Of a stretch of 64,000 nt of DNA, positions 52,378-64,000 are shown piece by piece (within the stretch, counting starts at the first letter, position 1; each line of letters opens with the position of its first letter). The position numbers and the translations under genes were made by a program. The stretch is taken from NCBI RefSeq assembly GCF_013488205.1, contig NZ_CP040908.1, forward strand, positions 3,675,607 through 3,739,606, in the 5' to 3' direction. This stretch comes from Empedobacter falsenii. Lineage in GTDB: Bacteria; Bacteroidota; Bacteroidia; Flavobacteriales; Weeksellaceae. The notes under the pieces are model-generated. The model saw only the letters and a list, made by a program, of their open reading frames with translations. It was not told where the DNA came from and did no database searches.

Positions 52378-53514
52378 ATGAAAGAATTAATAAGGTTTTT
52401 GGCTGTTTTTTTTATATTCAGCAATAATAATTGTTCAGGACAGAGGTTTTCTTATCAAAATGTCCCTTCAGAATATCTTGGAAATATTAGTATTACGGCA
52501 TCAGAGCGATTGGCAATTAAGAAAGGTCTTACAGCTCCTTATTTGTTAGAAAAGGCTTTGCCTAGAAATTATGTAAAAGATGGTTCTGTAGATTATACAG
52601 ATATTATCCAAAATGCTATTACAAAGAATAAAACGGTAATTTTTCCAAATTTTCCTATACTAATCAATGAGAAAGGACTTACATTGCGATCAAATTCAAT
52701 AGTTTATTTTCCAGAAAATGCAAAGATAATCTTGAAAACAAATAATTTTGGTCAATACGAAATTCTTAGAATACATGATGTAGATAATGTTAAAGTTTAC
52801 TTTCCTAATATTGTGGGAGACCGCTATTCTCATACGGGTACTACTGGAGAATGGGGAATGGGAATCTCTATTCGGGGAACAAACAATGTCTTAATTTATG
52901 GAGCAAAAGTAGAAAAATGTTGGGGAGACGGTATTTACTTAGGTATATCTCCAGTAACCAATAGTGTTATTAATAATAATGTGTTGATCAAAAAATCTAT
53001 AGTTGATGACAATCGCAGAAATGGGATGTCTATAATTTCAGCTCAAAATTCAATTTTTGAAAATTTTATTGCATCAAATACGTTTGGTACTGCACCAAAC
53101 GCAGGTATAGATATTGAACCAGATGCTAACACAGATATTATAAAAAACCTTACTTTTAATAACATTTTAGCATTTAATAACGATGTACATGGTTTTCTTT
53201 TTGTTTTATCAAATTTATATGGCAAAAACCAGAATATAGGAGAAATTAATCTAACAAATTTTACGTCAAATTATTCTCAATTTGGAGTTAGTCTAAAAAT
53301 AGGAACTGATAAAGAAAAACAATTTGAAGTTCCTTACGGAAGTATTATTATTGATAATCCATTATTACTAAATACTTCTAGACAATCATTATTATCGTAT
53401 GAAGAGAATAATAAAAATAAATTTTCAGTAAAAGTCAAAAGCCAAAGCGAAGCAAAAAGAAACGAGTATTTTAAGTATATTAATTCATCCAAAAATATAA
53501 TAATTAGTAAATAA
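52378..53514 (+). CDS. Exported right-handed parallel beta-helix protein
   Basis: 378 residues from the ATG at 52,378; a TTG at 52,363 is possible but lies over the previous stop. The signal-like N-terminus is LIRFLAVFFIFSNNNC, where the Cys might be a lipobox residue. Pectate-lyase-like coils follow (TDIIQNAITKNKTVIFPNFPI, NNVLIYGAKVEKCWGDGIYLGIS, NSVINNNVLIKKS, NRRNGMSIISAQNSIFENFIASN). Likely a periplasmic or outer-membrane polysaccharide-modifying lyase or epimerase; substrate unknown. Confidence 0.75.
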   Translation: MKELIRFLAVFFIFSNNNCSGQRFSYQNVPSEYLGNISITASERLAIKKGLTAPYLLEKALPRNYVKDGSVDYTDIIQNAITKNKTVIFPNFPILINEKGLTLRSNSIVYFPENAKIILKTNNFGQYEILRIHDVDNVKVYFPNIVGDRYSHTGTTGEWGMGISIRGTNNVLIYGAKVEKCWGDGIYLGISPVTNSVINNNVLIKKSIVDDNRRNGMSIISAQNSIFENFIASNTFGTAPNAGIDIEPDANTDIIKNLTFNNILAFNNDVHGFLFVLSNLYGKNQNIGEINLTNFTSNYSQFGVSLKIGTDKEKQFEVPYGSIIIDNPLLLNTSRQSLLSYEENNKNKFSVKVKSQSEAKRNEYFKYINSSKNIIISK

Positions 53515-55421
53515 TGTGTGGTATTAACGGATTTATTTCCAATAAAAATATAGATAGATCATTAGCTTTAAATAAACTTGAGGCTATGAATAATAGAATT
53601 ATTCATCGAGGTCCAGATGAAGACGGTTTTTTTGTAGATGATTGCGACAATCGCACAGTTGCTTTTGCGATGAGAAGGTTGTCTATTATAGATTTATCTA
53701 CAGGGAAACAACCCATTTTTTCTGATGATAAGCAGAAAGTGATTGTTTTTAACGGTGAGATTTACAATTATTTAGAACTTAAAAAAACTTTGGTAAACGA
53801 TGGCGTAACATTTACAACCACGTCCGATACAGAAGTTATTCTTAAATTATATGAAAAATACGGTGTAGAAGCATTCAAAATGTTAGACGGAATGTTTGCT
53901 TTCAGTATTTTAGATAAAACCATTAATAAAGTCTTCATTACTCGTGATTTCTTCGGAGAAAAACCTCTTTATTATAAATATGACGAAGCAGGACTTCAAT
54001 GGTGCTCTGAATTGAAGTCATTATTGAAAGTTATTACTGGTAAACCTCAAATTTCTGTTGAAGGGCTTAATTTATTTCTTCAATTAACCTACATTCCTGC
54101 TCCTTTTACCATTTATGAAGGAATTAAGAAATTAGAAGCTAATCATTTTATTGAATATGATTTAGAATCTAAAAAAATGAATATTGAAAAAATTCATTTT
54201 ATAGAAAATGTTTCTAAAATCAAAAAGCAAGATATAAGTTTTGAGGAAGCTAAGAATGAAATTAGGAAGTTAGTTTCTGAAAGTATAGCGAGCAGAAGTA
54301 TCTCAGACGTACCCATTGGAACTTTTTTATCTGGAGGTGTCGATTCGTCAATAGTAACCGTATCATTGGCAAAATCATTGAGCCAACCTGTAAATACTTT
54401 TTCGATAGGTTTTGATAAGAAGGTTTTCGACGAAACAGAGAAATCGAGAGTTGTAGCTGAATTAATTAAAAGTAACCATCATGAATTCATCATTGGAGAA
54501 AAAGATTTTGAACAAGATTTAGATCCAATTCTCAAGAATTTTGATGAACCCTTTGCTGATTCATCTGCGTTGCCAAGTTACTATGTAGCTCATAAAACGA
54601 AAGGGTATGTAACTGTTGCCTTAACGGGTGATGGAGGTGATGAAGTGTTTGGAGGATACAACAAATATCGCATTGGAGGAATGAATAGAAAATATACCTC
54701 TTTGATGCCCGAATATATGCATAAAAGTTCACTTGCTTTATTGAATAAAGTTTTAGCTCAAAAGGAAGATAAGAGAGGTTTAAAATTTCAAATCAAAAAG
54801 ACATTAAACTCCATAGATTATAACGGGAATTTCTTTTACAACATTATTAAGTTAGGCTTTAATGATAATCAAATTAAAGCAGCTTTATTACCACATTACA
54901 AAGTAGCGGATAGTCTTTCTTATTATAAAGAAAAATTGCCAGTTGCTAGAAATCTTACAGAGTTCAGAGAGGTAGACCGTATGATAAGTCTGGAAGGAGA
55001 TATGCTTGTAAAAGTTGATAGGACAAGTATGTTGACATCTTTAGAATCTAGAGCTCCGTTTTTAAATAAGAAGATTTGGGATTTCACCAATACTTTGCCA
55101 GAAGAATACCTTATAAAGGGAAATGATAAAAAGAGAATTCTAAAAAAAGCTTTTGAAAACGATTTTCCAACGAATTTTTTAGAAAAATCTAAACAAGGAT
55201 TTGGTGTGCCCGTTGGCGATTGGCTTAAAACAGTTTTGAAAAATGAATTACTAAGCTATATAGATAAAAAATTTGTTCAAGATCAACAAATTTTCGAATT
55301 TTCAGTAATCAATACATTAGTGTCAAATCATCTTAATAATATTGAAGATAATACTTTTGCTGTTTGGACTTATTATTGCTTCCAAAAATGGTTTTGTAAT
55401 ACACATCTTGAAATTTCATAA
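53514..55421 (+). CDS. Asparagine synthase (glutamine-hydrolysing) family amidotransferase
   Basis: 635 residues. N-terminal glutaminase with Cys2 (MCGINGFIS), RRLSIIDLSTGKQPI and FNGEIYNYLEL. The C-terminal ATP-pyrophosphatase domain has the PP-loop FLSGGVDSSIV and LTGDGGDEVFGGYNKY. Within a polysaccharide locus, such proteins usually amidate a uronic acid carboxyl rather than make free asparagine, which fits the uronic-acid enzymes here; that role is inference. Overlaps the previous stop by one base. Confidence 0.85.
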   Translation: MCGINGFISNKNIDRSLALNKLEAMNNRIIHRGPDEDGFFVDDCDNRTVAFAMRRLSIIDLSTGKQPIFSDDKQKVIVFNGEIYNYLELKKTLVNDGVTFTTTSDTEVILKLYEKYGVEAFKMLDGMFAFSILDKTINKVFITRDFFGEKPLYYKYDEAGLQWCSELKSLLKVITGKPQISVEGLNLFLQLTYIPAPFTIYEGIKKLEANHFIEYDLESKKMNIEKIHFIENVSKIKKQDISFEEAKNEIRKLVSESIASRSISDVPIGTFLSGGVDSSIVTVSLAKSLSQPVNTFSIGFDKKVFDETEKSRVVAELIKSNHHEFIIGEKDFEQDLDPILKNFDEPFADSSALPSYYVAHKTKGYVTVALTGDGGDEVFGGYNKYRIGGMNRKYTSLMPEYMHKSSLALLNKVLAQKEDKRGLKFQIKKTLNSIDYNGNFFYNIIKLGFNDNQIKAALLPHYKVADSLSYYKEKLPVARNLTEFREVDRMISLEGDMLVKVDRTSMLTSLESRAPFLNKKIWDFTNTLPEEYLIKGNDKKRILKKAFENDFPTNFLEKSKQGFGVPVGDWLKTVLKNELLSYIDKKFVQDQQIFEFSVINTLVSNHLNNIEDNTFAVWTYYCFQKWFCNTHLEIS

Positions 55422-55429
55422 AGTAGAAT

Positions 55430-56602
55430 ATGTTGAAAAAGAACTCAAAATTAATTAGAATAACGACTATACCAGGCTCTCTTAAGATATTATTAAAAGG
55501 ACAGCCAAAATACATGAGTAACAATTCTTTTGATGTGATTGGAGTATCTAGTTATGGAAATGAATTATTAGATGTAAAAAGAGAGGAAGGTATAAAGGTC
55601 TATCCAATAGAAATGTCTAGGAAAATCACACCTATCAAAGACATTAAATCATTATGGTCTATGTATAGATTGCTTAAAAAAGAGAAGCCTCAAATCGTTC
55701 ATACGCATACTCCTAAAGCAGGTATTGTAGGGATGTTAGCTGCGAAATTTGCAGGTATCCCTATTCGTTTGCATACAGTTGCCGGGCTTCCTCTTATGGA
55801 GGCAAAAGGCAATAAACGAAAAATTTTGGATTTTGTAGAGAAACTAACTTATTCTTCTGCGACTAAAATTTATCCTAACTCTCTTGGATTATATAATTTT
55901 ATTTTACAGAATGGTTATGCCTCAAAAGATAAATTACATGTGATTGCAGACGGTTCTTCAAATGGAATAGATACCAATTTTTTTTCTAAAGAAAATATCT
56001 CTCTTGATGAGCAAGTATCTCTAAAAACAAAACTAATTATAAATGAAAATGACTTTGTGTTTGTTTTTGTTGGTCGCTTAGTGGGAGATAAAGGTATTAA
56101 TGAATTGATTTCAGCTTTTTCGAAATTGCAAATAGATAATGTTAAATTATTATTAGTAGGTAGTTTTGAAGCAGAATTAGATCCACTAAATATTGAAACA
56201 TTAAAAGAAATTAATACCAATTCAAAAATAATAAGTGTTGGTTTTCAAAAAGATGTTCGTCCATATTTTGCTATTTCAAATGTTTTAGTATTTCCTAGCT
56301 ACCGGGAAGGTTTTCCAAACGTTGTAATGCAAGCTGGAGCTATGGAATTGCCAAGTATTGTGTCTAATATTAATGGATGTAATGAAATTGTTCAAGAAGG
56401 AAAAAATGGAACAATTATTTCTGTAAAAAGTAGTGAGGAAATTTTAAATGCAATGCAAAAATTAATTTCTGATAAAAACTATTATGCTTCATTACAAATA
56501 AATGCAAGACCGATGATTCAATCTCGTTATGAACAATCTGTAGTTTGGGAAGCAATATTAGATGAATATAATCTTTTAATTAGTCAATTGCCCAATTCTT
56601 AA
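55430..56602 (+). CDS. GT4 family glycosyltransferase (PglA/WbpX-like)
   Basis: 390 residues. LIRITTIPGSLKILLKGQPKYMS, IVHTHTPKAGIVGMLAAKFAGIPIRLHTVAGLPLM in the N-domain, FVGRLVGDKGINELISAF, and YREGFPNVVMQAGAMELPSIVS with the E-x7-E-like donor motif. The HTHTPKAG motif is that of the first glycosyltransferase acting after a PglC-type initiating transferase, encoded just downstream. It would add the second sugar on undecaprenyl-PP. Confidence 0.82.
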   Translation: MLKKNSKLIRITTIPGSLKILLKGQPKYMSNNSFDVIGVSSYGNELLDVKREEGIKVYPIEMSRKITPIKDIKSLWSMYRLLKKEKPQIVHTHTPKAGIVGMLAAKFAGIPIRLHTVAGLPLMEAKGNKRKILDFVEKLTYSSATKIYPNSLGLYNFILQNGYASKDKLHVIADGSSNGIDTNFFSKENISLDEQVSLKTKLIINENDFVFVFVGRLVGDKGINELISAFSKLQIDNVKLLLVGSFEAELDPLNIETLKEINTNSKIISVGFQKDVRPYFAISNVLVFPSYREGFPNVVMQAGAMELPSIVSNINGCNEIVQEGKNGTIISVKSSEEILNAMQKLISDKNYYASLQINARPMIQSRYEQSVVWEAILDEYNLLISQLPNS

Positions 56603-56620
56603 ATTTATTATTTTTGTTCT

Positions 56621-57226
56621 ATGTACAAAAATTACTTAAAACGTTTTTTTGATTTCCTAATTGCTTTGATAGGATTTACAATGATATCTCCTATTTTTTT
56701 GATAGTTGCTATAGCTCTATGTTTTGCCAATCAAGGAAAACCGTTTTTCTTTCAGGCTAGACCTGGTAAGAATGAGAGAATCTTTAGGATTATTAAGTTC
56801 AAAACGATGAATGATAAAAAAGATCCAAACGGAAATCTTTTATCAGATGCCGAACGACTTACTCCAATTGGAGCTTTTGTCCGTAAAACAAGTTTGGACG
56901 AGATTCCTCAGTTAATTAATGTATTGAAAGGTGATATGTCTATTATTGGTCCAAGACCATTATTACCACAATATTTACCTTTGTATAATAAAGAGCAAAA
57001 ACGTCGTCATGATGTACGTCCAGGTATTACGGGTTGGGCACAAGTAAATGGTAGAAATGCCATTTCTTGGACTAAGAAATTTGAATTAGATATTTGGTAT
57101 GTAGACCATTTATCTTTTATCTTAGATATAAAAATATTTTTCTTAACTATCAAAAAAGTTGTTGTTCGAGAAGGGATTTCTCAAGAAGGACAAGCAACTA
57201 TGGAAATGTTTAATGGTAATAATTAA
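56621..57226 (+). CDS. Initiating sugar-phosphate transferase (PglC/WcaJ small type)
   Basis: 201 residues, the short PglC-like form. One membrane segment ([21 protein letters not shown]), then [72 protein letters not shown]. It transfers a sugar-phosphate from a UDP-sugar to undecaprenyl phosphate and thereby starts the repeat unit. The only such enzyme in the window. Confidence 0.88.
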
Positions 57227-57229
57227 AAA

Positions 57230-58351
57230 ATGAAAATAGCAATTCTAGCAAGGGTATTATTTTTAAGTGGAGTAACTACTCATATTATTGATCTAAGTAA
57301 AGAGTTGATAGAGAGGGGGCATGAAGTGTTTGTTTTCACTTCAGGACCAGAGTTTGCAGAAAGTGAAGCAAATGTAAATTTATTAAATAGATTAGAAGTA
57401 ATAGGTGCACAAATTGTAAAAATTGATTTTCCTAATAATATCAAGAATAAACTGTTATACGGTTTAAAGATGTTAAAATCTGTTCCTGTTGTTCACAGAA
57501 AATTAGTAGATCTTAAAATAGATGTTATACATGTACATACACCAGCTTTATCTTTTATCCCTGTTTTATTAAGAAAGAAATATGTTAAAACTATTCATAT
57601 TGCTGATTTATCATTATCTATTCTTAATAGAAGAGCTACACATGAAATTACAATTAGTCGAGAAACCTATAAGGAAGCTCAGCAAAAATTTAATTATAAT
57701 GAAGATGAATTAACTCTCATATTTAATGGAGTTGATAAAAGGTTTTCAAAACAATCTCCAAAAGAAAATAACTTAAAAACAAGAAATGTTTATAAAATTA
57801 ATAGTGATAAAATTATAATTGGTATTGTTGGAAGTATTCAATATCGTAAAGGACATGATGTACTATTAAAAGCAATAAGCAAATTCCCTAGTGATATAAA
57901 AAATAAGGTAATATTAGTTATTTTAGGAGAGGGTAATAAAAAAGACGAAAAATGGTTATCAAACTTAGTAACTGAAAATTTTTTAGAAAACATTGTTATT
58001 AAGTTGCCATTTCAAGATCCTAAACCGTTTTATGATATTATAGATATATTTGTTTTACCTTCTAGGTTAGAAGGTTTTCCTTTAGTTGCTATTGAAGCAT
58101 TTTTATCTGGTTGTTGTGTTGTAAGAAGTAATGTAGAAGGGGCATATGATCAAATTGATGATGGTAAAACTGGTTTTTTATTCCAGAATGAAAATGTAGA
58201 TGAATTGAAAAATATTTTGGAAAAATTGACAATAGATGATAAATTAAGAATGGAAGTTACTAATAATGGTAGAGAATTTGCACTACAAAATTTCACATCT
58301 GACATAATGGCTGAGAAAACTATTGAAGTCTACCAAAAAGTAATTAATTAA
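57230..58351 (+). CDS. GT4 family glycosyltransferase
   Basis: 373 residues. LARVLFLSGVTTHIIDLSKELIERGHEVFVFTSG, VHVHTPALSFIPVLLRKKYVKTIH, IGIVGSIQYRKGHDVLLKAI, LPSRLEGFPLVAIEAFLSGCCVV with the E-x7-E motif. It closely matches GT-B enzymes of capsule and O-antigen loci. Starts three bases after the initiating transferase and ends two bases before the ATP-grasp gene. Donor unknown. Confidence 0.8.
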   Translation: MKIAILARVLFLSGVTTHIIDLSKELIERGHEVFVFTSGPEFAESEANVNLLNRLEVIGAQIVKIDFPNNIKNKLLYGLKMLKSVPVVHRKLVDLKIDVIHVHTPALSFIPVLLRKKYVKTIHIADLSLSILNRRATHEITISRETYKEAQQKFNYNEDELTLIFNGVDKRFSKQSPKENNLKTRNVYKINSDKIIIGIVGSIQYRKGHDVLLKAISKFPSDIKNKVILVILGEGNKKDEKWLSNLVTENFLENIVIKLPFQDPKPFYDIIDIFVLPSRLEGFPLVAIEAFLSGCCVVRSNVEGAYDQIDDGKTGFLFQNENVDELKNILEKLTIDDKLRMEVTNNGREFALQNFTSDIMAEKTIEVYQKVIN

Positions 58352-58353
58352 AA

Positions 58354-59325
58354 ATGAACAATAACATACTTATAACCTCAGCAGGTCAGAGAGTTTCTTT
58401 GGTGAAAGCATTCAAAAATGAAATTAAGAAACTAAATGTAAATAATAAGGTTTTTACGGTTGATTTAAACCCCATTTTGGCTCCAGCTTGTCATATTTCT
58501 GATGGGTATAGAACTGTTAAAAGAGTAACAGATTCAAATTACATTTCTGAACTTATTCAAATTTGTAAAGAATTAGAAATAAAAATAATTGTTCCTACAA
58601 TTGATACGGAGTTATTGGTTTTAGCGGAGAATAAAGAGATGTTCTTAAATAATGGAATAACGCCAATTGTTTCATCTTTAGATTTTGTGAAGGCGTGTAG
58701 AGATAAACGAATTATTAATCAATTTTTTGTCGATAATAATATTGATATTCCTCAAGATTTAGATAAAAATAACCTTTCATTTCCTTTATTCATTAAACCT
58801 TATGATGGATCATTAAGTAAAGATACTTTTTTAATTGCAAATGAATCTGAATTAACAGACTATCACTTCAATAATTCAAAATTAATGTTTATGGAATATA
58901 TTGATCATGCTAAACATGATGAATATACGGTAGATACCTACTATGATAAAAATGGAAATTTAAAATGTATTGTTCCTCGTAAACGTATTTTTGTTCGTGC
59001 GGGTGAAGTTAATAAAGGAGTTACACACAAAAATGAAATTGTTTCTTATGTTAAGGAAAGACTTTCCTATATAGAGGGAGCTGTAGGATGTTTAACGATG
59101 CAATTTTTCTTTAATCAAGAAACAAAACGTATTATTGGAATTGAGATAAACCCTCGTTTTGGAGGAGGTTATCCACTGAGTTATTTAGCAGGAGCTAATT
59201 ATCCTAAATATTTGATTGAAGAATATATTTTAGGAAAAAAGATTGATTATACTGAAAATTGGGAGAATAATTTATTAATGCTTCGTTATGATGATGAAGT
59301 TTTAGTTCGTAATTATGAAGGTTAA
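58354..59325 (+). CDS. ATP-grasp enzyme (carbamoyl-phosphate-synthase-like ligase)
   Basis: 323 residues. Pre-ATP-grasp Rossmann domain (ILITSAGQRVSLVKAF), then the ATP-grasp domain with FPLFIKPYDGSLSKDTF, MEYIDHAKHDEYTVDTYYD and IIGIEINPRFGGGYPLSYLAG (metal-binding Glu-x-Asn). It joins a carboxylate to an amine using ATP; within polysaccharide loci such enzymes attach amino acids or similar groups. It overlaps the HAD gene by 11 bases, so the two probably act together. The substrate is not known. Confidence 0.82.
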   Translation: MNNNILITSAGQRVSLVKAFKNEIKKLNVNNKVFTVDLNPILAPACHISDGYRTVKRVTDSNYISELIQICKELEIKIIVPTIDTELLVLAENKEMFLNNGITPIVSSLDFVKACRDKRIINQFFVDNNIDIPQDLDKNNLSFPLFIKPYDGSLSKDTFLIANESELTDYHFNNSKLMFMEYIDHAKHDEYTVDTYYDKNGNLKCIVPRKRIFVRAGEVNKGVTHKNEIVSYVKERLSYIEGAVGCLTMQFFFNQETKRIIGIEINPRFGGGYPLSYLAGANYPKYLIEEYILGKKIDYTENWENNLLMLRYDDEVLVRNYEG

Positions 59326-59953
59326 ATATATCATTTTTGATCTTGATGATACATTAATGTACGAAATTGATTTTCTCAAATCTGCATATAAAGAAATTTC
59401 AACTTTAGTTGAGAAAGAAAATCAAGAAGAATTATATAATTTAATGTTATCAAAATATCAAAAAGGAGAGAATGTTTTTGATTTTTTGATTGAAAACTAT
59501 CCAGAATTCTCCAAAGAGTTATTGTTGGAAGTATATAGAAATCATTTTCCAACTATTGATTTAAATGAGGGAGCAGATAACCTTTTGAAAGAAATAAAAG
59601 CTAAAGATTATAAATTAGGTTTGATAACAGATGGTAGATCTATAACACAACGAAATAAACTAAAGGCATTAGGGATTGAAGATTTATTTGATAAAATAAT
59701 TGTTTCAGAAGAGTTTGGTTCAACAAAGCCTGATGAGCGTAACTTTAAAATATTCCATGAAAATGATATCGATGATTATTTTTATATAGCAGATAATCCT
59801 AAAAAAGATTTTGTTAGTCCAAATAAATTGGGCTGGACAAGTATTTGTCTCTTAGATCAAGGAAGTAATATACATTCACAAAATTTTAATATAGAAGAAG
59901 ATTATTTACCAAAAATTAAAATAAATAGTTTAAGTGAATTATTAAAATTATAA
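59315..59953 (+). CDS. HAD family hydrolase
   Basis: 212 residues. The HAD motif I is IFDLDDTLMYE (nucleophile Asp and acid Asp two residues later), motif II is GLITDGRS, motif III Lys is in GSTKPDERNFK, and motif IV is YIADNPKKDFVSP. The cap is of the helical C1 type. It resembles YjjG/phosphoglycolate-phosphatase-like enzymes. The overlap with the ATP-grasp gene suggests a phosphorylated substrate in the same small pathway. Last gene of the polysaccharide operon, followed by a terminator. Confidence 0.82.
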   Translation: MKVKYIIFDLDDTLMYEIDFLKSAYKEISTLVEKENQEELYNLMLSKYQKGENVFDFLIENYPEFSKELLLEVYRNHFPTIDLNEGADNLLKEIKAKDYKLGLITDGRSITQRNKLKALGIEDLFDKIIVSEEFGSTKPDERNFKIFHENDIDDYFYIADNPKKDFVSPNKLGWTSICLLDQGSNIHSQNFNIEEDYLPKIKINSLSELLKL

Positions 59954-59958
59954 CATAT

Positions 59959-59986
59959 AAAAAGGTTCCAAGTTGGAGCCTTTTTA
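59959..59986. terminator. Bidirectional terminator ending the polysaccharide operon
   Basis: A-run, then GGTTCCA and TGGAGCC with a 3-base loop, then a T-run. It follows the HAD stop by six bases and overlaps the stop codon of the convergent HTH gene. Confidence 0.85.
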
Positions 59987-60205
59987 TATATTAACCATCT
60001 TGAAAAATTCGTATAATTTCATTTCTCTAGCTTCACAAATTCTTAAAATTGTTTTTAAACTAATATTGTAATTCTCATCTTCTTTAATTAGTCTTACAGT
60101 TTTTTCATCAATACCATGTGACGTAGCAAAAGATAAATTACTTTGATCATTTGCTAACCAATTATCTCTTATAAATTCTACTATTTTTCTATTTTTATCT
60201 TTCAT
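59984..60205 (-). CDS. XRE-family helix-turn-helix transcriptional regulator (small)
   Basis: 73 residues, just a DNA-binding domain. The HTH pattern is NLSFATSHGIDEKTVRLIKEDENYNISLKTILRICEAREMKLYEFFKM, which is Cro/CI-like with the recognition helix at about DEKTVRLIKE. No ligand or dimerisation domain is fused. A perfect palindrome 33 bases upstream (60,238-60,257) is a natural operator for autoregulation. The divergent structured RNA gene shares this intergenic region. Confidence 0.75.
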   Translation of the reverse strand: MKDKNRKIVEFIRDNWLANDQSNLSFATSHGIDEKTVRLIKEDENYNISLKTILRICEAREMKLYEFFKMVNI

Positions 60206-60272: not shown

Positions 60273-60280
60273 TATATTTG
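60273..60280 (+). promoter_or_regulatory. Putative -7 element (TATATTTG) for the structured RNA
   Basis: Exact TAnnTTTG match on the plus strand, 44 bases before the outer stem of the structured RNA at 60,324. No TTG is visible at the best -33 distance; instead the palindrome occupies that region. Confidence 0.4.
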
Positions 60281-60323: not shown

Positions 60324-60431
60324 GCATTAGAAAACTGGTAATTTTTGTAGCAACGAGAAAATAAGTAAATTTGCTCACGACCTAGGCGTGGGCTCTCTTA
60401 TCGTTGCACGGTATACCAGTACCTCTAATGC
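60324..60431 (+). ncRNA. ssrS: Structured RNA, probable 6S RNA (6S-Flavo type)
   Basis: About 108 bases fold into one long irregular hairpin. The closing stem is GCATTAGA/TCTAATGC (60,324-60,331 with 60,424-60,431), then CTGGTA/TACCAG. A central bubble (60,341-60,349 opposite 60,408-60,413) follows, then GCAACGA/TCGTTGC, and an apical hairpin GCTCACG/CGTGGGC. A rod with a central bubble is the 6S RNA design, which mimics open promoter DNA and binds the housekeeping RNA polymerase. The bubble contains TAATTTTTG, close to the clade's TAnnTTTG -7 box. The family assignment is from shape and size, not from a covariance search. The strand is assumed from the upstream -7 element. Confidence 0.55.
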
Positions 60432-60605
60432 TTTAAGAAGAGTTCCATGCCTTTCTTGTTTTTGGTCGTTTTCTTCCATCACATTCGCATCGAACTTTTT
60501 TATAATTTACTTGGTTTTATTCCTCTACAAATCAAGTGAAATATGCTCTCTCTAGATATGTATTTCTATAATAGAAATGTGCAGATGGTTATTAGATTCT
60601 AATAG

Positions 60606-60951: not shown

Positions 60952-61107
60952 GTTATAAGTGAATTAGAATATTGATAATAAAAAACACGTAAAACGTTGA
61001 GCGTATTACGTAAAAAAATAAACCCCTTTCCCCAAACAAAGTTGGCGCGATGTACTGGAAAGGATGGCTTTTAAAACTATTGTTGAATTAAAAAACTATG
61101 TAAAATT
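60952..61107. repeat. R repeat, copy 1, containing a conserved hairpin element
   Basis: About 155 bases alignable with 62,044-62,215. Shared blocks include CGTTGTTA, ACAAAGTTGGCGCGATGTAC, CTTTTAAAACTA and TGTTGAATTAAAAAACTATG. Flanking the conserved core are CCTTTCC (61,025-61,031) and GGAAAGG (61,057-61,063), a perfect 7-bp pair. The copy ends exactly at the start of a 58-codon ORF. Confidence 0.7.
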
Positions 61108-61284
61108 ATGAGAAAATTTTACTTCAAATTCAGTAGGCAATTGTATGCTGAACTACTGAGATTATTTTGTGCTATACCTTTATATGCACAAATAAAAACC
61201 ATGACTGACATGGTAAATGAAATTCGGACCTTAGTGGTGGATATACTACTAGTAGGAAGGAGAAATAGTGAACAAAATTATTAA
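61108..61284 (+). CDS. Possible 58-residue small protein, or a hairpin-rich RNA
   Basis: ATG at 61,108 directly follows the R repeat and opens 58 codons (begins MRKFYFKFSRQLYAELLRLF, ends RRNSEQNY). The composition is basic at the ends and hydrophobic in the middle (TLVVDILLVG), plausible for a small membrane-associated protein. I recognise no family. The same DNA holds four consecutive perfect hairpins: TCAGTAG/CTACTGA (61,130-61,159), TTTGTGC/GCACAAA (61,166-61,192), ACCATG/CATGGT (61,198-61,214) and TAGTGGT/ACTACTA with one wobble (61,232-61,251). So an RNA function is an equal or better explanation. Confidence 0.3.
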   Translation: MRKFYFKFSRQLYAELLRLFCAIPLYAQIKTMTDMVNEIRTLVVDILLVGRRNSEQNY

Positions 61285-61515: not shown

Positions 61516-61567
61516 ATAAAAACCATTGAGGTTAGATAAATTAAGTGTTAAAAAGAGTTAAAATCCT

Positions 61568-61687
61568 GTATCGTTGTATATCGAAAAAGACACTTTTCTG
61601 TATCGGTTGTGTATCCGCGCTGTATCCATTCTATATCCATTGTATATGCGTTCCGTATGGTTTGTTCGGTGTTCGTGTATCGGAAGG
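61568..61687. repeat. Degenerate 11-bp tandem repeat, about 11 units
   Basis: From 61,600 the sequence reads in 11-base units: GTATCGGTTGT, GTATCCGCGCT, GTATCCATTCT, ATATCCATTGT, ATATGCGTTCC, GTATGGTTTGT, TCGGTGTTCGT, GTATCGGAAGG. Weaker units extend back to 61,568. The consensus is about GTATCCGTTGT. The period is close to one helical turn and is not a multiple of three, so it is not coding. Confidence 0.7.
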
Positions 61688-61727
61688 ATTGTTAGGATGT
61701 ACTATGTATTAAGTAAAAAGTACAGAT

Positions 61728-62045: not shown

Positions 62046-62215
62046 AATCCGTTGTTAAAAGTGAATTTGATTATTAATAAGAAAAAACGAAAAGCGTTAG
62101 CGTAGAACATAAACCGTGAAAATAAAACTCCCTTTCCCTAAAACAAAGTTGGCGCGATGTACAGGGTAAGGAGTGACTTTTAAAACTAATGTTGAATTAA
62201 AAAACTATGTAAAAA
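62044..62215. repeat. R repeat, copy 2, upstream of the sigma/Cas12f-like operon
   Basis: Homologous to 60,952-61,107. The conserved core GTTGGCGCGATGTAC is flanked by CTCCCTTTCCC (62,128-62,138) and GGGTAAGGAG (62,164-62,173), which pair with one mismatch and one bulge. The flanks differ in sequence from copy 1 yet still pair, so the stem is conserved by compensating changes. It ends about 50 bases before the sigma gene ATG and may form part of its leader. Confidence 0.68.
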
Positions 62216-62265: not shown

Positions 62266-63048
62266 ATGCTAGAAAAAGAATATGAATTATTTAAAAAAGG
62301 CGATCCCAAAGCTTTGGAGCAAATCTATTCACGACATAAAAGATTACTTTTTTGGATTGGTAAACAAATAGTTTATGATGAATTTGTTGTAGAATGTTTG
62401 GTACAAGATGCGTTTCTGAAATTATGGGAATATCGAGATAACATAGAAAGACCTGAACATATCTTTTATTTCACGCGACTTGTTTTGAAACAAAGTTGTT
62501 ATTCGCATTATAGAAGATCTAAAAATAAATTTTTTAGGTCGGTGCATTCATTAGATAGTTACGAGAATTATGATAGTTATTTGACTGGATACGATCCGTT
62601 AGAGGTTGCAGAAAACATAAAGGATAAAATAATACATGACCAACATTATGAAGAAATTAGAAAAATATTACCCTTATTAAGTGCTGAAAGAAAACATTTG
62701 ATTGAACTCTGTTTGAAATATGGATTCAGATACAAATCGATTGCCAATGCAATGGGAAAAAGAGTTTCAGAAACGAGCAAGGAGATTAAAAGTGCAATAG
62801 AGGATGTTAAGAACCTTATAAATAGTCATGATGTATTAGTGTCTAAAAAGAAAATAGTTTCTAAGGAAAAGGAACAAAATCAAATGACCGAAAAACAATC
62901 GTTGATTTTAAAGCTTCGATTCGAGAAGAAACAATCGTTTACAACCATTGCTCAGACATTAGAACTTTCTCAGAAAGAAGTGCACAATGAATTTGTAGTC
63001 GCTTATAAATTGTCTCAACAAAACAAGTTTACCCCCCTAAATAACTAA
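62266..63048 (+). CDS. ECF (sigma-E-like) sigma factor with extra C-terminal HTH, linked to Cas12f-like gene
   Basis: 260 residues, longer than the usual 170-200 for ECF factors. Region 2 spans about 4-85 (ALEQIYSRHKRLLFWIG, VQDAFLKLWEYRD, FYFTRLVLKQSCYSHYRRSKN, i.e. regions 2.1-2.4). Region 4 spans about 126-185 (LLSAERKHLIELCLKYGFRYKSIANAMGKRVSETSKEIK). After a Lys/Glu-rich linker (190-206) a second region-4-like HTH follows (MTEKQSLILKLRFEKKQSFTTIAQTLELSQKEVHNEF). No anti-sigma gene is adjacent. The Cas12f-like gene begins two bases after the stop. Inferred role: the polymerase-recruiting half of an RNA-guided transcription complex. Confidence 0.85.
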   Translation: MLEKEYELFKKGDPKALEQIYSRHKRLLFWIGKQIVYDEFVVECLVQDAFLKLWEYRDNIERPEHIFYFTRLVLKQSCYSHYRRSKNKFFRSVHSLDSYENYDSYLTGYDPLEVAENIKDKIIHDQHYEEIRKILPLLSAERKHLIELCLKYGFRYKSIANAMGKRVSETSKEIKSAIEDVKNLINSHDVLVSKKKIVSKEKEQNQMTEKQSLILKLRFEKKQSFTTIAQTLELSQKEVHNEFVVAYKLSQQNKFTPLNN

Positions 63049-63050
63049 AT

Positions 63051-64000
63051 ATGGAAAATTCTACAGTTTTTTTAACACGTAAAATACAGCTAATTGCTGA
63101 TTTACCGACTCAAGAAGAACGAAAAGAAGTTTTGAGCACGCTTTATAAATGGCAAAATAGATGTTTTATAGCGGCTAATTTGATTGTTTCTCATTTGTAT
63201 GTGCAAGAAATGGTGAAAGATTTTTTTTATTTCTCTGACGGAATCAAATATAAATTAGTAGACGAAAACAAAGATGAAGATGGTATACTCAAATGTTCAC
63301 GGTCGACTACCATTTATCGTGTACTCTCAAAACGTTTTAAGGACGAAGTTCCAATGTATATATTGTCTTGTTTGATGAATATGTTATACCTATCCTTCAA
63401 GAAGGATTGTGTCAGGTATTGGAAAGGTGAACTTTCATTAAAAATTTTTAAACGAGATATAGCAATTCCTTTTAATATAGCGAGGATAAGTAAATTCTCG
63501 TATGATACAGATAAAAAATACATTTATTTTAAACTTTATAAAATACCTTTTAAAACGTATCTTGGAAGAGATTATATTGATAATTATAAGCTATTGGAGC
63601 AAATAGTAAGTAAAGAAATTAGAATTTGTAGATCGCATATTAAATTAGAAAAAAATAAAATATTTTGGGTATTCACTGTAGAAATTGAAAAAGAAAAAAA
63701 TCAATTACAACCCGATATTATTGCAGAAGTTTCCTTGTCGTTGGAATATCCGTTGGTTGTAAAAATAGGGAGATCTCAACTTACCATTGGTAGCAAAGAA
63801 GAATTTTTGTACAGAAGATTAGCGATACAAGCTTCTCGTAAAAGAATACTAGAAGGAGTGCCTTATTGCAAAGGAGGGAAAGGAAAAGCAAGAAAATTAA
63901 AAATAGCAAAAAAATTACAAAATACAGAGAGTAAATATGTTCATCATCGGCTACATGTTTACAGTAGAATGTTAATTGATTTTTGCGTTGAAAAAAAAGC
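63051..64000 (+). CDS. Nuclease-dead Cas12f/TnpB-like protein (dCas12f), partial at right edge
   Basis: Open from the ATG at 63,051 to the window end, 316 codons with no stop. Residues 1-220 form an N-terminal region consistent with WED/REC domains (TRKIQLIADLPTQEERKEVL, LYKWQNRCFIAANLIVSH, IFWVFTVEIE). The RuvC-I region follows: where active enzymes read G-I-D-L-G this reads E-V-S-L-S, so the catalytic Asp is Ser228. After it come the family blocks PLVVKIG (234-240), FLYRRLAIQASRKRI (252-266), GGKGKARKLK (275-284) and HVYSR (302-306). RuvC-II, the zinc ribbon and RuvC-III lie outside the window. Two bases from the sigma gene, so cotranscribed. Predicted to bind DNA through a guide RNA without cutting. 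Confidence 0.83.
   Translation, partial: MENSTVFLTRKIQLIADLPTQEERKEVLSTLYKWQNRCFIAANLIVSHLYVQEMVKDFFYFSDGIKYKLVDENKDEDGILKCSRSTTIYRVLSKRFKDEVPMYILSCLMNMLYLSFKKDCVRYWKGELSLKIFKRDIAIPFNIARISKFSYDTDKKYIYFKLYKIPFKTYLGRDYIDNYKLLEQIVSKEIRICRSHIKLEKNKIFWVFTVEIEKEKNQLQPDIIAEVSLSLEYPLVVKIGRSQLTIGSKEEFLYRRLAIQASRKRILEGVPYCKGGKGKARKLKIAKKLQNTESKYVHHRLHVYSRMLIDFCVEKK

Follow-up and report, generated by a model that had tools for sequence, protein, structure and literature searches.

Starting transcription under the guidance of an RNA is a form of gene control that was described only recently. The closest described relatives of the locus analyzed here are PDB entries 9n9c, 9n9m, 9n9o and 9n9q, which we take to represent the dCas12f–sigmaE system of Flagellimonas. 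TldR proteins, which are nuclease-dead TnpB homologues without a known partner sigma factor, act as repressors. They have been described as TnpB-derived RNA-guided transcription factors, with flagellin expression being regulated (PMC13418256).

We analyzed a 64,000-nt stretch of Empedobacter falsenii DNA (the window; C1:3675607–3739606), which lies at the very end of contig C1 (3,739,606 bases). An earlier reading of the letters alone (the sequence-only reading) had noted sigma factor and Cas12f-like genes two bases apart on one strand, and had proposed that they form an RNA-guided transcription system. The features concerned are:

62266..63048, + strand: ECF-type sigma factor gene, 260 aa, regions 2 and 4 (ORF; match to the RpoE chain 9n9q_C, E 2e-79)
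63051..64000, onward to C1:1–148, + strand: gene for nuclease-dead Cas12f (dCas12f), residues 1–316 of 365 within the window (ORF, homology)
63732..63734, + strand: TCC codon of Ser228, at the position of the RuvC-I catalytic Asp (HMMER alignment)

Both ORFs indeed lie on the + strand, 2 bases apart. The Cas12f-like frame runs unbroken past the window end into C1:1–148, C1 therefore being circular, and it aligns with a complete second copy. The sigma protein matches 9n9q_C, named 'RpoE' (E = 2.1e-79), and the Cas12f part matches the 'Nuclease-deactivated Cas12f' chains of 9n9c, 9n9m, 9n9o and 9n9q over 361 residues (E = 4.4e-148). For RNA polymerase beta' of this genome (320 residues), the best match of all solved chains was 9n9p/9n9q (E = 1.5e-155). 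Because 9n9q alone holds relatives of all three proteins, the sigma–dCas12f pair is, by homology, a member of the already known dCas12f–sigmaE–RNA polymerase kind. It combines a Cas12f homologue that has lost its RuvC active site (D to S228, with the RuvC-III region and zinc ribbon gone) with a neighboring ECF sigma gene whose product is a homologue of RpoE, the partner in dCas12f–sigmaE systems. The closeness of both proteins to 9n9q chains, together with a scaffold sequence after each dCas12f gene, supports the RNA-guided system proposed earlier. The sigma factor has a further region-4 match at residues 205–241, well past the point near residue 183 where its regular regions 2 and 4 stop; this addition may explain its length of 260 aa.

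Comparison with Cas12f agrees with the earlier call that the RuvC-I Asp has become Ser228. In the HMMER alignment, this residue (query ...aevSlsle...) lies opposite an Asp of Cas12f chain 9nzo_B (...vgvDlgin...), presumably the catalytic RuvC-I Asp. Serine is invariant at this position in 14/14 aligned homologues, 13 of them picked among the matches listed (120 of 943). The protein aligns with Cas12f chains 9nzo and 9nzr over residues 86–362. RuvC-II, RuvC-III and a zinc ribbon had been expected past position 64,000, an expectation that failed for RuvC-III and the zinc ribbon: the protein ends at 365 aa, whereas the Cas12f chains it was aligned with have 506–508 aa and are covered only up to residues 414–416. 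Chains 9nzo and 9nzr extend ~90 residues beyond the dCas12f C-terminal end, and the RuvC-III region and zinc ribbon are absent because dCas12f ends before these parts; the RuvC-II position coincides with an alignment gap. Set against a type V-F CRISPR–Cas12f nuclease, then, the RuvC acids are not intact and the zinc ribbon is missing. Distant homology to both TnpB and Cas12f is what one would also see for an active nuclease, or for a transposon accessory gene, yet the substitution of Asp by Ser throughout the aligned homologues, the missing C-terminal part and a score of 58.3 bits against a curated TnpB cut-off of 100 bits leave that explanation a negligible chance. Overall, dCas12f occurs in 77/320 genomes of the family and in 7/14 of the genus.

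A second copy of the operon, 98% identical, lies 0.7 Mb off at C1:3013915–3015649 (−) and is complete in stretch L004. The named relatives matched were E. falsenii (95%), E. stercoris (94%) and E. tilapiae (71%). Between the two copies, dS is 0.019 for dCas12f and 0.091 for sigma; as the dCas12f genes differ less than the sigma genes, the values suggest recent gene conversion. Relative to three related species, dN/dS is 0.10–0.13 for dCas12f and 0.14–0.21 for sigma; over all seven comparisons that involve a dCas12f copy of this genome, the range is 0.10–0.25, and for sigma, in the comparisons with these copies, it is 0.14–0.23. The dCas12f frame is open in both copies and in the three related species. 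Selection seems to maintain both proteins.

The surroundings of the two copies were inspected as well. By eye, the flank of copy 1 (window 53514–59953) resembles a surface-polysaccharide cluster, with asparagine synthase, glycosyltransferases, a sugar transferase and an aminotransferase, and copy 2 has two neighbor genes in common with E. tilapiae (L005 494–1630). Small divergent genes of 73–79 aa lie upstream of a leader RNA (described below) in both copies (window 59984–60205 (−); L004 13644–13883) and in E. stercoris (L020); the product of the window gene gives a weak Cro/C1-type HTH match, slightly under the Pfam cut-off. Stretches with a period of ~11 bases (TGTATCCATTC-like and AAGGCAGGATA-like; window 61560–61690, L005 266–314, L009, L010) occur near both copies, where the non-coding DNA is rich in repeats, and at other places in the genome.

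Downstream of the dCas12f stop codon, an RNA scaffold was found in the 46 regions inspected, some of which represent one locus twice and one of which (L051) starts inside the scaffold. It comprises three hairpins, with compensatory changes at 5 of 15 pairs among 24 sequences, and its 3' end is mostly TATACAA(C/A). Folding the window RNA as a single sequence was uninformative (z −0.15), whereas the aligned set was informative. The scaffold model (R2) hits this genome at C1:161–230 and C1:3013685–3013754 only, once after each dCas12f, and within the genus it finds 7/14 genomes, exactly those seven with dCas12f. A scaffold-plus-guide gene is thereby predicted at the locus. In this genome each locus has a single scaffold unit rather than the array of a type V-F system. 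Several relatives have 2–4 guide RNA units in tandem (L034, L039, L043 and L083), and in some of these the DNA between units looks like leftover sequence from the dCas12f 3' end, a pattern that growth of the array through duplication of the gene's tail would leave.

The guides that follow the scaffold differ between lineages. At most loci of the family's other genera, the largest of which we presume to be Chryseobacterium, the scaffold is followed by GGCGTGGG(C/T)T and a T-run; at L075, from a genome of another family, it is followed by GCGTGGGCTCTCTTAT. Empedobacter paralogues carry other guide words. In the window lineage the word is GGGGGATTTTT, and this core is conserved across five copies in four genomes. 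The length of the T-run after the guide varies between lineages.

Upstream of the sigma gene lies a second structured RNA, the leader. Its parts and surroundings in the window are:

60273..60280, + strand: −7-like box TATATTTG, upstream of the leader RNA, fitting Bacteroidota TAnnTTTG
60325..60456, + strand: conserved structured leader RNA (model R1), ~1.8 kb before sigma (folding, covariation, 143.7 bits)
60373..60379, + strand: leader arm A, GCTCACG, pairing with arm B in the rod (rod alignment)
60385..60401, + strand: leader arm B, GGCGTGGGCTCTCTTAT, the stretch matched by relatives' guides (guide–leader comparison)
60435..60456, + strand: leader arm C, AAGAAGAGTTCCATGCC, plus T-rich tail, the alternative terminator-like partner of arm B (folding, pairing)
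60961..61167, + strand: sequence related to a susC 5' region of the same genome, 84% (sequence comparison)
62063..62214, + strand: 5' segment also present at susC in this genome, 88% alike, directly before sigma (sequence comparison)

The Bacteroidota −7 box has the consensus TAnnTTTG, and TATATTTG occurs 50–80 nt upstream of the leader in 12/13 leaders inspected, the other (L067) having TACTTTTG. The leader is 132 nt long, and the segment 60300–60550 folds far better than shuffled versions (z −6.1; 0/200). In the rod structure, 99.6% of cells are paired across 21 sequences, with 45 compensatory cells in 27 pairs, a number reached in 0/500 shuffles. Arms B and C can also pair: 94.3% of cells are paired, versus 39–55% in slid versions of the alignment. 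Covariation of B:C is weak (3 pairs with double changes, 6 cells), and this pairing therefore rests mainly on the pairing of cells and on folding of the 3' part. An RNA that starts at arm B folds into a hairpin with at least 16 closing pairs (−27 kcal/mol for the window, −32 for L037). In this folding model, the B:C hairpin and T-run can form a predicted terminator, as an alternative to the A:B rod. Within arm B, GCGTGGG begins at 60386, with a G immediately 5' of it. No Rfam 15 family matched over the leader at E values up to 1.

The leader is far more widespread than dCas12f. Model R1 finds it in 237/320 genomes of the family, with a maximum of 8 per genome; as dCas12f is present in 77/320, the leader does not depend on it. 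One more leader is on a Rhizosphaericola mali plasmid. Among 20 leader loci that are not followed by sigma, picked among the matches listed, 13 precede a SusC-type TonB-plug gene (the second ORF in L145); in the scan of the others, which covered all but L149, three precede thioredoxin-like genes and three precede genes without a Pfam match. The spacer between leader and susC is 0.23–0.39 kb in 11/13 SusC cases inspected elsewhere, and 1.1–1.3 kb, with dispersed repeats, in Empedobacter (L186, L067).

Upstream of sigma, the leader was found in 43/65 dCas12f sources searched (L055 and L021 being one locus). The 22 sources where it was not found are nine of other genera, in which ~0.7 kb before sigma was searched; Empedobacter L053, L054 and L057–L061, in which 3.7–7.2 kb was searched, plus three short fragments of the same loci; and three sources that lie at a contig end. 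Among the nine of other genera, L033 and L048 have what looks, by eye, like a decayed leader remnant. The present genome has four leaders, two before the sigma copies and two elsewhere (L067 and L068). The leader of L067 precedes a susC–susD pair recognized by Pfam, with a third gene that is peptidase-like by eye; the leader itself is 82% alike between the sigma and susC upstream regions, and with the 88% segment listed above this would take the control common to both operons further in the present genome. That of L068 (8060–8194 (−)), with a TATATTTG box upstream and a longer T-run after arm C, heads a small gene without a Pfam match, response-regulator-like by eye, in a conjugative-element-like region.

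To relate the two RNAs, we compared guides with leaders. In a set of 42 loci with both (the 48 leader matches less L055, which is the same as L021; L065 and L067, which coincide; L066 and L068, which likewise coincide; and L074), the best guide shares an exact run of at least 8 with the leader of its own locus in 20 cases, a run of 6–7 in 12 and a shorter run in 10. The 22 dCas12f sources without a leader match lie outside this count. Shuffled leaders, which preserve base composition only, give expectations of 0.10 loci with runs of at least 8 and 2.0 with runs of at least 6, against counts from loci that are related and so not independent events. In 31 of the 32 loci with a run of at least 6, the match falls at arm B, the exception being L021. 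As the leader is an inverted repeat, its reverse complement likewise shares runs of up to 7 with guides.

Leaders elsewhere in the same genomes gave a similar picture. We took ten leaders that do not precede sigma from nine other genomes (two from G227, and one each from G277, G170, G267, G027, G050, G391, G205 and G215); this set excludes L184, which lies before a sigma gene, and the two such leaders of the present genome. A guide of the same genome matches with a run of at least 6 in 10/10 and of at least 8 in 7/10; for G205 and G215, both Empedobacter, the runs are 7. Downstream of five of the ten leaders (L145, L186, L187, L206 and L208) is a TonB-plug gene, and downstream of two others (L139 and L189, the latter at the same place as L210) a thioredoxin-like gene. 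Across eight dCas12f-positive genomes, the decamer GCGTGGGCTC occurs at 20 places, namely 15 leaders, 3 guides of guide RNAs and 2 elsewhere, versus 5 places for the reversed pattern. Of these 15 leaders, nine lie before sigma and six before other genes. A 5'-G motif is reportedly needed beside the target in dCas12f–sigma systems, and a G precedes the GCGTGGGCTC match in 15/15 leaders; that regularity does not by itself prove a G motif, because pairing within the leader also keeps this base.

The likeness of guide and leader could be mere common ancestry, the 3' end of the guide RNA having once been copied from a leader without any targeting role. Guide and leader do sit within one operon, and the own leader is not always matched. 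This explanation is unlikely given three further observations. The match starts where the scaffold stops, which is the expected start of a guide. Guides match the other leaders of the same genome in all ten cases above, as expected if leaders hold guides in trans. And in L046, L047 and L049, which are very similar and perhaps reflect one event, the leader match has been lost and the guide kept: arm B before sigma reads GGCAAGGG, and the guide is still GGCGTGGG. Whatever keeps the guide in these three loci seems not to be the leader of the locus itself.

A guide site of this sort might equally serve repression, with dCas12f blocking promoters in the manner of TldR and the sigma factor a mere neighbor. 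Such a repressor would fit the missing RuvC-I Asp, the many loci in which a short guide is followed by a T-run, and the position of the guide site inside a leader with a −7-like box of its own. Yet the sigma match adjoins dCas12f in 46/46 sources (some being one locus twice, and L056 being cut by a contig end), and 9n9q combines dCas12f, RpoE and RNA polymerase in a single entry. We consider RNA-guided repression very unlikely.

Instead, the operon and its predicted scaffold–guide RNA gene very probably constitute an RNA-guided transcription switch. In such a switch, dCas12f loaded with its guide RNA would open the DNA where the guide matches, and the sigma factor would recruit RNA polymerase there. 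In the relatives, the guide RNA would set sigma and polymerase on leader arm B, activating the switch's own sigma–dCas12f operon and SusC-type operons, with transcription starting downstream of arm B. A start at that point would yield RNA without one half of the terminator; unable to form B:C, the transcript would bypass the attenuator. For the present organism, we infer RNA production, RNA binding by dCas12f, R-loop formation and polymerase recruitment.

The earlier reading had guessed SusC/SusD-type transport genes as the genes switched on. The guess fares well in relatives, where guides match a leader that is often before SusC-type genes, but the guides of the window match 0/4 leaders of this genome: the runs of GGGGGATTTTT with them are only 3, 3, 5 and 4. 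The window guide has no other genomic site within 2 mismatches, and between copy 2 and the neighboring TonB-dependent receptor no cis target was found with up to 3 mismatches in 16 bases, the guide itself excepted. As an exact 11-mer, GGGGGATTTTT has one non-self place in the genome, C1:341353, which is terminator-like, after rpoC and ~193 nt before an acyltransferase-like gene; the gene names were assigned by eye, rpoC being supported by the beta' match. The site is present in 4/4 genomes searched, all of which carry this guide. It is a weak candidate target, as a conserved terminator explains the site equally.

Other candidates were discarded. Targets sought with a 19-mer guide and 3 mismatches gave 3 non-self matches, versus 8 for the reversed control. 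A first guess at the guide, the stretch TTGCTAGATACTCCCAACAT after ...TTGAAAC, returned only its two self copies with up to 3 mismatches; the guess was dropped because the alignment of relatives set the scaffold end at ...TATACAA(C/A). The ~11-base periodic stretches that follow the guides (AAGGCAGGATA...) reappear at two further places and were taken for dispersed repeats rather than targets.

In this lineage the system might be a relict, its guide eroded to GGGGGATTTTT without a target and its proteins lingering. The failure to match any of the four leaders, the lack of a convincing target and the variable T-run would all be explained by decay. This is quite unlikely, however, in light of the low dN/dS of both genes, the dCas12f frame that is open in both copies and three related species, and the GGGGGATTTTT core that is retained in all five copies. 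Because the proteins and this core are kept, in five copies and four genomes, we read the comparison, with moderate confidence, as a guide that changed address rather than decayed.

A broader proposal, which we offer tentatively, is that one guide can serve many operons. The conserved attenuator leader could be the address of the dCas12f–sigma system in two flavobacterial families. A guide RNA that copies arm B would reach the leader-bearing SusC-type, thioredoxin-type and own operons and direct an RNA-guided restart past the attenuator. The Empedobacter paralogues would have split into sub-lineages with different guides, the window lineage being re-addressed. Should the structured leader that these operons share serve as the address, the regulon could be predicted from the leaders that a genome carries; the leader thus gives a testable answer to how one short guide could control several genes. 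It is also of interest as a widespread RNA of the family that often precedes SusC-type genes, independently of dCas12f and without an Rfam 15 match.

Compared with the system of 9n9c, 9n9m, 9n9o and 9n9q, the Empedobacter dCas12f has the same length, 365 aa, and a Ser at the RuvC-I position; it is ~60% identical to the solved dCas12f (60% to P0089, which by eye is almost the same as the solved chain). The partner sigma factor is 260 aa here versus 261 aa for the RpoE of 9n9q. Unlike the 9n9q system, the Empedobacter genome has two copies, a somewhat diverged scaffold and the GGGGGATTTTT guide, and its leader lies 1.8 kb before sigma, versus 0.1–0.2 kb in the other genera inspected. Unlike the Cas12f effectors 9nzo and 9nzr, the protein has no RuvC-I Asp and its C-terminus is truncated. 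TldR and dCas12f–sigma systems are both RNA-guided regulators of the TnpB/Cas12 kind, but the Empedobacter operon includes a sigma gene, which sets it apart from TldR. Like transcription-attenuation leaders, the leader has a mutually exclusive A:B rod and B:C hairpin with a T-run; unlike them, its arm B doubles as the guide match. What is new here, beyond the known kind, is the second copy, the scaffold after each dCas12f, the conserved leader and the match between guide and leader arm B.
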